A stretch of 36,250 bases of DNA. It comes from an uncultured Caryophanales bacterium (GTDB taxonomy: Bacteria; Bacillota_I; Bacilli_A; RFN20; CAG-449). This document shows, one piece after another, positions 182-35,742 of this stretch; the first letter of the stretch is position 1, and each line of letters starts with the position of its first letter. The notes below the pieces were generated by a model. It saw only the letters and a program-made list of their open reading frames with translations. It ran no database searches and was not told where the DNA came from. The translations under genes and the position numbers were made by a program. The stretch lies in NCBI GenBank assembly GCA_945873815.1, contig CAMCEE010000019.1, forward strand, positions 1-36,250. Reading direction: 5' to 3'.

Positions 182-210
182 TTGACAAATGATAAGATAA
201 ATGATAAGAT
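182..210 (+). promoter_or_regulatory. Promoter of AlbA_2 ATPase, overlapped by 12-bp repeats
   Basis: A consensus -35 TTGACA (182-187) is followed by a 17-nt spacer and TAAGAT (205-210). Two complete copies of AAATGATAAGAT (187-198, 199-210) and a partial third (AAATG, 211-215) fill the spacer and -10, so a protein that binds the repeat would block RNA polymerase. The RBS GAAGGAG (221-227) follows at once. Confidence 0.6.
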
Positions 211-235
211 AAATGTGGTAGAAGGAGTCCTGTTT

Positions 236-1579
236 ATGTATAAGGAAAATGAATTTATAGAATTGAAAAAATCTTTGTCTCAATTAAAAGAGGGCGTCAT
301 TTCAATGAGCTCAATGCTTAATAAAGGCGGAAAAGGAATTGTCTACTTTGGAATTAATGATGATGGCAGAATTTGTGGATTGACATTAGGCAAAAAAACG
401 AAATCTGAGATAACTAATGAAATTAACAATAACCTAAAACCTCTTCCTATAAATATCTCTATTGAGGATAGCGAAGTAGATGAAAAAACAATCATCATCG
501 TTCGCGTAGAAGGCAATGATACTCCTTATTCTGCATATGGTAGATATTATATTCGTTTGAACGATGCGGATATTCAAATGCAACAACATGAACTCCAACA
601 TTTTTTCGAAAGAAAAGAAGGGAATTATACCTCTTGGGAAAACAAAGAAACTTCACTTACTGTTGAAGATGTCAATGAAGAACTTTTGATAGATTGCATA
701 AGAACAGCAAACGAAAAAGGACGATTGAATTATGTGTATAGGAATTCTTTTGAGGCATTAACCAAATTAGGTTTACTTTCCGACAATGGCCACTTAAACA
801 AAGCCGGGGAATTTTTATTTGGAAATAACAAACCATTGAAAATTAAGGAAGCCAATTTCCCTACTGATGCTAGAACGGATTTTGGAGAAATAAAAGAATT
901 CAGAGGAAACATTATTGAATGCATTAAGGAAGCTATCTCTTATTTACAAAATCATATTTCTTATAAATCGAATATCGTTGGAATTCAAAGAGAAGAAACA
1001 CCAGAAATTCCTCTTCTTGCAATAAGAGAAATTGTTATTAATTCATTTGCGCATTGCTCATACGCAAGAACCGGTGATAACATCTCTTTTACAGTTTTCA
1101 AATCTCAGATAAAAATATATAATCCAGGTTCTATCTATAATGACATAGATCCTGTTAGATTTGCTTCAGGTAGTGTTGGAAGCAAAATTAGAAACCTATT
1201 AATTTCTCAAACATTATTCTATTACGGATATATCGATGCCTTTGGAACAGGCTTTGACAGAACTTTTACAGTTTGTGCTAATAACGGAGTTGAGTATAAA
1301 TATAACAACGATGAATTGGGATTCACATTCTCTTTCAAAAGAAAACAAAATTTCTTAAATGATAAGATAAATGATAAGATAAATGATAAGATAGATTCAA
1401 TCGATAGATCTATTATGGAGATTATATTAGAAAACAAATATATAACAATTCCGGAATTAGCTTCATTAATAAAAAAATCAGAACCAACAATTCATAGACA
1501 CCTTGACCATTTATCTGAATTAAACATGATACGAAGGGTTGGTTCTAGAAAAACAGGATATTGGGAGATTCTTAAATAA
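236..1579 (+). CDS. AlbA_2 (Schlafen-type) ATP-binding protein with C-terminal winged helix
   Basis: 447 aa. An ATG at 236 with GAAGGAG 8 nt upstream is preferred over the in-frame TTG at 182, which is really the first three bases of the -35 box. Residues about 1-115 form an AlbA_2/Schlafen-like putative DNA-binding domain (ELKKSL..., then GGKGIVYFGINDDG). About 150-365 resemble the RecG-C-like/HATPase-like part of these proteins, with REIVINSFAHCSY and FGTGFDR motifs. A linker of three NDKI tetrapeptides (encoded 1357-1392) leads to a winged helix (about 390-447, ending GYWEILK). Family members are usually called putative transcriptional regulators or ATP-dependent helicases; the true activity is poorly established. 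It stands alone, and its promoter carries the same 12-mer as its linker, so autoregulation is likely by inference. Confidence 0.8.
   Translation: MYKENEFIELKKSLSQLKEGVISMSSMLNKGGKGIVYFGINDDGRICGLTLGKKTKSEITNEINNNLKPLPINISIEDSEVDEKTIIIVRVEGNDTPYSAYGRYYIRLNDADIQMQQHELQHFFERKEGNYTSWENKETSLTVEDVNEELLIDCIRTANEKGRLNYVYRNSFEALTKLGLLSDNGHLNKAGEFLFGNNKPLKIKEANFPTDARTDFGEIKEFRGNIIECIKEAISYLQNHISYKSNIVGIQREETPEIPLLAIREIVINSFAHCSYARTGDNISFTVFKSQIKIYNPGSIYNDIDPVRFASGSVGSKIRNLLISQTLFYYGYIDAFGTGFDRTFTVCANNGVEYKYNNDELGFTFSFKRKQNFLNDKINDKINDKIDSIDRSIMEIILENKYITIPELASLIKKSEPTIHRHLDHLSELNMIRRVGSRKTGYWEILK
1357..1392 (+). repeat. Three tandem AAATGATAAGAT repeats in the linker
   Basis: Three identical in-frame 12-bp units (1357-1368, 1369-1380, 1381-1392) encode the NDKI linker. 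The same 12-mer occurs twice at 187-210 in the promoter of this gene. Nothing in the flanking coding sequence explains such exact identity. Confidence 0.95.
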
Positions 1580-34745: not shown

Positions 34746-34782
34746 ATAAAAGGTGGAGAAATTTTTTTCTTGCCAAAATAGG

Positions 34783-34856
34783 GGTATTCAAAACTCGTAA
34801 AGGGTATTCAAAATTTGCTCAGAGGTATTCAAAAATATCGCTAAGGGTATTCAAAC
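34783..34856 (+). repeat. Four GGTATTCAAA repeats at 20-22 bp spacing
   Basis: Copies start at 34783, 34803, 34824 and 34846 (first three GGTATTCAAAA, fourth GGTATTCAAAC). The steps are 20, 21 and 22 bp, two helical turns, and not multiples of three throughout, so it is not a coding repeat. It lies upstream of the AlbA_2-ATPase relic. Iteron- or operator-like. Confidence 0.85.
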
Positions 34857-34908
34857 ACGTATCGTTATGAGTAATTAATGCCATTTGAAAACAATAACTT
34901 TGATATGA

Positions 34909-35382
34909 CATGATGAAATTGAAATATACAATCAAGGAACGTTCCCTGAGCAATATAATCCTAATGATTTTATAGACAATAGAATTCAATCCATAAGAAG
35001 AAATCCGTTGATTCTAGATGTTTTATTCAGAAGTAAAGACGTAGAAAAATCTGGAACTGGTTTTGCTAGAATGAGTGAACTTTGTGATCTAAATAATGTT
35101 AAATGGAGATATGAAAAATTAAATAACGGTTTTAAATTTATATTTATAAGAAACAACGTCACCAATACTGTCACCAATACTGTCACCAATACAGACTTAA
35201 CCGATATTCAAATTCGAATTTTAGAAATAATTACAGTTAACTGCAATATAAAAGTGGATGAAATAGCTTCAGTACTTGATATATCCGCAAGAACAATTCA
35301 AAGAGGAATAAAACTTTTGACAGAAAAAGGATACGTTAAAAGAATTGGTACAAAATCTGGCCACTGGGAGGTTCTTAAATAA
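34909..35382 (+). pseudogene. AlbA_2-type ATP-binding protein, C-terminal relic
   Basis: The frame is open from 34909 and matches the second half of the gene at 236-1579: EIEIYNQGTFPEQYNPNDF, FRSKDVEKSGTGFARM, linker TNTV x3, then a winged helix ending GHWEVLK. It stops upstream at a TGA near 34906 with no RBS or start. The AlbA_2 domain and most of the ATP-binding part are lost. The linker is encoded by GTCACCAATACT x3 (35158-35193). Confidence 0.8.
35158..35193 (+). repeat. Three GTCACCAATACT repeats in relic linker
   Basis: 35158-35169, 35170-35181 and 35182-35193 (last base changed), in frame, encoding VTNT units. Same 12-bp period as the repeats at 1357-1392 but unrelated sequence. Confidence 0.93.
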
Positions 35383-35742
35383 TGCAAAATTTTGGAACTG
35401 GTATGCCTAGAATATTTGAGGCGTATGAAAACTCAACAAAAAAGTAGATTTTCAGTTAGTGATAACTTTTTTATCATTAAACTTCCTAATTTAAATTATG
35501 GTGACCCAATAAATGACCCAACAAATTTAATCAAAGATGATGCACTAAATGATATCGATTTAAGTATATTAAGAATGATCCAACTTAACCCTGGTTTGAA
35601 TGCAAAGCAAATAGCAGAAAAATTACTTCTTCAATATTCAAATATAACTATAGATATGGTTAAAAATTCATTAAAAAGAAAATTAACAAAATACGTTACT
35701 TTTAAAGGCGCTTTAAAGACAGGAGGATATTTTGTTATATGA
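35382..35742 (+). pseudogene. Second AlbA_2-ATPase relic, +1 frameshift in an A-run
   Basis: The frame starts MQNFGTGMPRIFEAYENSTKK then stops at TAG; the next frame continues SRFSVSDNFFIIKLPN to 35742. Removing one A from the A6 run at about 35439-35444 restores a continuous protein, so a slippage mutation split it. It is the C-terminal part of another member of the family: FGTGMPRIF motif, a DPIN/DPTN linker (12-bp repeats at 35503-35526) and a winged-helix end (LNAKQIAEKLL). It begins inside the stop of the first relic. Confidence 0.75.
35503..35526 (+). repeat. Two GACCCAA(T/C)AAAT repeats in relic linker
   Basis: 35503-35514 and 35515-35526 differ at one base. A third, again different, 12-bp linker repeat. 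Confidence 0.85.

Follow-up and report, generated by a model that had tools for sequence, protein, structure and literature searches.

Putative self-operators in the promoter and the interdomain-linker codons of AlbA_2/HATPase_c_4/winged-helix genes

Why should the promoter of a gene and the codons for a linker between two domains of its product carry the same 12-bp repeat? The question is posed by a gene at the start of a 36,250-nucleotide stretch of DNA from an uncultured Caryophanales bacterium (the whole stretch is called the window below). As a sequence-only reading had claimed, the unit AAATGATAAGAT occurs in exact form twice in the promoter (187 to 198 and 199 to 210) and three times in the linker codons (1357 to 1368, 1369 to 1380, and 1381 to 1392). 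The promoter array, a putative operator on the forward strand, extends to position 215 (187 to 215; 2.4 copies) and overlaps the promoter spacer and -10 element. The linker-encoded array, likewise a putative operator on the forward strand, spans 1356 to 1393 (3.2 copies), with its three full units at 1357 to 1392 encoding NDKINDKINDKI (residues 375 to 386).

The gene itself (236 to 1579, forward strand) encodes a protein of 447 amino acids, which we characterized by its Pfam domains, an AlphaFold2 model (mean pLDDT of 81.7), and its best fold match, the nearest solved structure, DIP2311 (PDB code 3lmm). Pfam confirms the earlier call of AlbA_2 and winged-helix domains, placing an SLFN_AlbA_2 domain at residues 4 to 115 (PF04326; E = 3e-17, above the cutoff) and a C-terminal winged helix, HTH_24, at residues 387 to 433 (PF13412; E = 3.1e-8), with additional matches to Lrp/AsnC-type wHTH domains; between the two lies an HATPase_c_4 domain at residues 280 to 362 (PF13749; E = 6.8e-10, above the cutoff). 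The winged helix, encoded at 1394 to 1576 on the forward strand and with a recognition helix at about residues 416 to 428, is the putative reader of the array, and the NDKI linker that precedes it is predicted to be disordered (pLDDT below 50 at residues 376 to 386). Translation likely starts at ATG 236, because a Shine-Dalgarno-like GAAGGAG, read from the sequence, is present at 219 to 225 on the forward strand and the homologue alignments begin at this codon; a longer open reading frame from TTG 182 runs in frame through the promoter array, and on the same grounds this TTG is unlikely to be the true start. In a consensus scan around the start of the gene, the top promoter-like site on the forward strand is a sigma-70-type TTGACA-17-TAAGAT at 182 to 210 (10 of 12 consensus matches), a quality of match that is common by chance and by itself no proof of function.

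Chance can be ruled out as the origin of the shared repeat on three grounds. The longest stretch common to the promoter and the coding sequence is 29 bp, whereas 1,000 synonymous shuffles that kept the protein and its codon pool averaged 10.8 bp and did not exceed 27. Within the window, an array 25-mer with up to three mismatches matches only at the two arrays, and 100 dinucleotide-preserving shuffles of the window give an expectation of 0. Finally, in the whole 1.8-Mb genome, the 17-mer AAATGATAAGATAAATG occurs exactly only at the two arrays, with two further single-mismatch sites elsewhere, and no other array comparable to those of this gene is present.

Searching genome contigs for the protein, with codon degeneracy allowed, yielded a set of 47 homologous loci. 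In homologues with 54 to 96% identity (L006 to L023 and L025), the promoter array precedes the start codon in essentially all sequences that include the region, though the remaining upstream DNA differs. Four of these loci (L008, L011, L016, and L018) have an additional inverted copy upstream (atcttatcattt...aaatgataagat), as expected for a site on double-stranded DNA. The more distant L024 (37% identity) lacks the window motif in both its promoter and its homologous gene and instead has a different repeated element upstream. The sequence-only reading had further argued that the identity of the linker copies exceeds what the protein requires, and codon usage bears this out: 123 of 145 NDKI units are exactly AATGATAAGATA, whereas the codon usage of the rest of the 25 genes concerned predicts 7.1, a comparison in which the ratio matters more than any P value, since units within arrays and between relatives are nonindependent. 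Lysine is encoded by AAG in 93% of these codons (27% elsewhere in the 25 genes) and isoleucine by ATA in 100% (32% elsewhere). The same NDKI-encoding DNA is also found with very different protein backbones from Bacteroidales, Clostridia, and Holophagales.

That reading had proposed comparing the promoters and linkers of many such genes. Genes with HATPase_c_4 domains were gathered from 119 genomes belonging to the order of the window; in all, the comparison covers 124 nonredundant AlbA_2/HATPase_c_4/winged-helix genes, and the statistical samples span Bacilli, near relatives, and the 47-locus homologue set. For each gene, upstream DNA was compared with the gene's own coding sequence, and the highest-scoring ungapped match was taken wherever it fell. 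Among the first 69 genes, matches scoring at least 18 fell in the linker in all 16 genes that had them, including 6 of 6 outside the NDKI type; when upstream regions were exchanged between genes (542 pairs), only one of three such matches did so. Restricting the comparison to a linker window 52 to 87 codons from the C terminus and excluding the NDKI type, own promoters scored 11.28 versus 8.96 for swapped ones (permutation test; z = 10.7; n = 55), with z at most 3.5 in ten other gene windows. In an independent class-level sample, for which the linker window was fixed beforehand and the NDKI type was again excluded, the corresponding values were 10.20 and 9.22 (z = 5.4; n = 55), with z at most 2.2 in other windows. 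Across the 124 genes, then, it is in the linker that a promoter matches its own gene best.

The motifs shared in this way vary by subfamily and include AAATGATAAGAT, AATGACCCAATA, TTTTCTGGTTG, and TGTCGGTTTA, among others. In L241, L110, L247, and L239, the motifs are AATGACCCAATA, AATGACCAAATA, and AATCGCCAAATA, and inverted pairs flank the -10 element; TGTCGGTTTA occurs in L266 and L250, and TGTCGGTGTA occurs in L167. A further group (L188, L271, L272, L196, and L004) has GTGGGT, GTTGGG, GTTGGT, or GTGGGGGAT, whereas TTTTCTGGTTG is found in L027, L190, and L191, TGGACATTT in L002 and L185, TGGCGAAAT in L174, and TGTCACCAA in L228. The linker copies are inverted relative to those of the promoter in L002, L027, L174, L190, L191, and others. 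Promoter copies are spaced by 10 to 12, 20 to 24, or 33 to 34 bp, and linker copies mostly by 12 bp, which keeps the reading frame; within single genes, the promoter and linker spacings can be 11 versus 12, 10 versus 12, or 20 to 24 versus 12 bp. A simple copy would retain its spacing, and these differences therefore argue against one. Further, the two linker copies lie 23 bp apart in L027, L190, and L191 and 10 bp apart in L228, so that in these four genes the copies fall in different reading frames and encode no repeated peptide. Together, the inverted matches, the NDKI codon bias, the frame differences, and the differing spacings strongly support a constraint that acts on the DNA and not on the peptide; to judge from these comparisons, the intragenic sites are conserved as DNA.

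This evidence bears directly on a protein-level cause, under which a linker of tetrapeptide repeats would be selected as a spacer and expanded by slippage, its likeness to the promoter being incidental. Such a spacer would agree with the mostly 12-bp (four-codon) period of the linker arrays and their predicted disorder, and long exact arrays such as those of L192 and L279 do look slippage grown. However, the sharing with the gene's own promoter in both samples, the codon bias, and the inverted and frame-shifted copies largely refute it for genes with a promoter match, and we regard it as improbable overall, while noting that some linker-only arrays may have such an origin.

The recognition helices provide a further line of evidence. 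Six subfamilies each combine a recognition-helix class of their own with a motif of their own, and, within subfamilies, promoter and linker change together: the summed longest common substring is 259 for own promoter-linker pairs versus 225.5 ± 10.8 for swapped ones (P = 0.003). On unrelated backbones that share NDKI linkers, the winged helices are more alike (0.286 versus 0.212; p = 1.3e-7, where the Mann-Whitney and pair statistics count related pairs as independent). Outside the NDKI type, no significant signal linking recognition helix and motif was seen across unrelated backbones, and the claim of covariation is hence kept to the subfamily level.

Taking these observations together, we propose, as the probable explanation, that the protein recognizes the 12-bp repeat, as a unit, through its own C-terminal winged helix. 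In the promoter, where the copies overlie the -35/-10 region, their occupation would result in autoregulation, most likely repression. The copies in the linker codons would give the gene a further set of binding sites, within its coding sequence, that selection on the DNA maintains; the linker might host them because a disordered part tolerates almost any peptide. With the arrays about 1.17 kb apart, the bound protein would probably either bridge them into a loop or act as a roadblock to the elongating polymerase, and either could tighten self-repression. The identical arrays also recombine with each other, deleting the AlbA_2-ATPase part.

Recombination of this kind underlies the principal rival, namely, that the linker array has no function and was copied from the promoter operator (or vice versa), recombination or gene conversion between the two keeping it in place, with the promoter array as the sole true operator. 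That the arrays recombine, as the sequence-only reading had envisaged, is borne out by two loci. In L026 (1060 to 1710), the promoter array is fused directly to the linker array and winged helix, the AlbA_2-ATPase part is missing, and both flanks are those of the window, the left one as far as the promoter array and the right one beginning with the linker array; on sequence grounds, this allele of the window locus is the product of a deletion from array to array, and it comes from a contig that was probably misbinned into a metagenome-assembled genome labeled Paludibacteraceae. In L035 (2830 to 4060), a 122-bp array segment, including one inverted unit, is common to promoter and linker, and it looks like a whole operator copied between the two; array homogenization or copying of this sort could mimic part of the DNA conservation. 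NDKI-plus-winged-helix stubs are also common: in about ten loci, all that is left is such a stub, with the array at or close to one of its ends. Against a functionless copy are the spacings that differ within one gene, the frequent inversion of the linker relative to the promoter, the lack of shared nonrepeat flanks except in L035, and the persistence of about 21 linker arrays with no promoter partner. The copy numbers of promoter and linker are also uncorrelated (Spearman coefficient of -0.04 over 14 NDKI genes), and this, like the differing spacings, lends no support to the earlier suggestion that exchange couples linker length to operator copy number. We accordingly hold a functionless copy to be unlikely, if still the most serious competitor to binding at both arrays.

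The stand-alone stubs L036, L037, L038, L039, L041, and L042 have a mostly intact frame and no obvious start codon. Three stubs (L036, L038, and L041) and the fuller genes of L007, L020, and L024 directly follow tRNA genes. The gene occupies different places in different genomes, since L006 and L007 share with the window only the promoter and gene (from about 147/160 to 1580), with unrelated flanks; no conserved neighbors, including any downstream partner, were found. One could hence imagine the arrays as the ends of a mobile element, with the AlbA_2-ATPase segment between them excised and inserted as a cassette, and the stubs, the deletion allele, the unrelated flanks, and the tRNA-adjacent sites would be in keeping with this. 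Yet the unit common to genomes runs from about 147 to 160 to the stop codon at 1580 and thus extends beyond the linker array, Pfam revealed no recombinase domain in the protein, promoter arrays without linker arrays are common, and the deletions are explained by plain recombination between direct repeats; we deem this reading very improbable. As for other types of replicon, a phage or plasmid gene was rejected, as the relatives on such replicons are all distant and a viral collection contained a single contig with an array. So was a plasmid iteron replication initiator: the plasmid relatives are distant (less than 35% identity), and the family genes lie on chromosomal contigs with no origin or plasmid link.

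In L027 (360 to 1700), a different AlbA_2 gene, of the TTTTCTGGTTG type, lies upstream of the membrane-protein gene that also follows the regulator gene in the window, and the locus therefore appears to exchange AlbA_2 genes. That downstream gene (1580 to 1880) is apparently broken by stop codons in the window and is intact in L026 and L027. At the other end of the window (34782 to 35742), four GGGTATTCAAA repeats spaced by about 20 bp are followed by a truncated gene of the AlbA_2 type, the linker of which is VTNT (GTCACCAATACT, 2.9 copies), and a second C-terminal fragment has an NDPINDPTN linker; by their sequences, these are remnants of two further family members.

The linker array could alternatively serve as the operator of an internal promoter for a winged-helix-only product or a downstream gene. 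Arrays of this type can overlap promoters, and the stubs retain an intact winged-helix frame; still, the consensus scan detected no good forward promoter-like site at the window's linker array, no obvious start with a ribosome site follows it, and the downstream genes are unconserved, making this the most far-fetched of the readings considered.

The proposed pairing of two operators has clear bounds. A period-12 linker array is present in 45 of the 124 genes, and 58 of them have a tandem array in the promoter; by inspection, the linker unit is shared with the promoter in about 24 of the 45 and unshared in about 21. Linker repeats with no promoter match, which the sequence-only reading had named as evidence against its model, are thus found in nearly half of these arrays. 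Its claim of putative autoregulation at two operators draws strong support, at the level of sequence comparison, from promoter-linker sharing in many subfamilies, conservation as double-stranded DNA, and covariation, but does not extend to the family as a whole. Promoter arrays are present in 38 of the 79 genes with no linker array; as many genes have only the former, the linker site would be dispensable, and the second site is neither universal nor always paired. Six of these promoter-only genes (L122, L178, L209, L222, L248, and L253) have units of 9 to 12 bp or paired units of about 23 bp. Promoter arrays seem to be a wider hallmark of the AlbA_2 family. Linker arrays with no promoter match characterize a subgroup with a C terminus of the ..GHWEI.. 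type (L103, L279, L111, L118, L169, and L170), in which several arrays are long and exact; at least L111, L169, L170, and L279 have similar upstream sequences of another type (agctaa-aaagc..). The linker arrays of L103 and L279 occur nowhere else in the respective genomes, and no other targets were found there.

More broadly, it is possible, though we would not yet call it probable, that throughout this large family of regulator genes, which are solitary and wandering, the linker between the domains evolves as an operator embedded in the gene, with changes in winged-helix specificity moving the promoter and linker sites together. If so, linker peptides would be readouts of binding sites, and the DNA targets of many uncharacterized proteins in this widespread family, which has no known function, might be predicted by reading their linker codons and promoters. 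The usual view of a repetitive linker would be reversed, the peptide repeat appearing as a by-product of an embedded DNA-binding array. Paralogues with different motifs would form a natural series in which a winged helix and two sites change together, suited as well to asking whether an intragenic operator aids self-repression.

Several parallels are offered by known systems. The protein shares the AlbA_2-plus-ATPase architecture of the COG2865-type SLFN_AlbA_2/HATPase_c_4/winged-helix proteins (DIP2311; 3lmm), for which the open-access papers searched describe neither a function nor an operator; likewise, we found no report in the open-access literature of a promoter operator combined with an intragenic self-operator in AlbA_2 regulators. 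In the autoregulation of iteron-type plasmid Rep proteins, a winged-helix protein binds arrays, both tandem and inverted, in the promoter of its own gene. The present proteins resemble these in being winged-helix proteins with arrays, putatively bound, in their own promoters but are encoded by solitary chromosomal genes with no origin or plasmid link. The lac O2 site in lacZ and the gal system provide a promoter operator and an intragenic operator that can be bridged by a loop, the second lying in or near a structural gene. Here, a similar, putative pair is seen, but the second site is placed in the interdomain linker of the regulator itself and reappears, with other sequences, in paralogous subfamilies. 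Bacteriophage lambda O has its binding sites (the iterons of ori-lambda) within its own O gene (PMC4488673). Like lambda O, the protein studied here would be a DNA-binding protein with repeated sites inside its own coding sequence; it differs in that the lambda sites form a replication origin, whereas no replication role is indicated here, the AAATGATAAGAT unit also forms a promoter array, and the protein is an AlbA_2/GHKL-like regulator. Among these systems, lambda O is the closest precedent.
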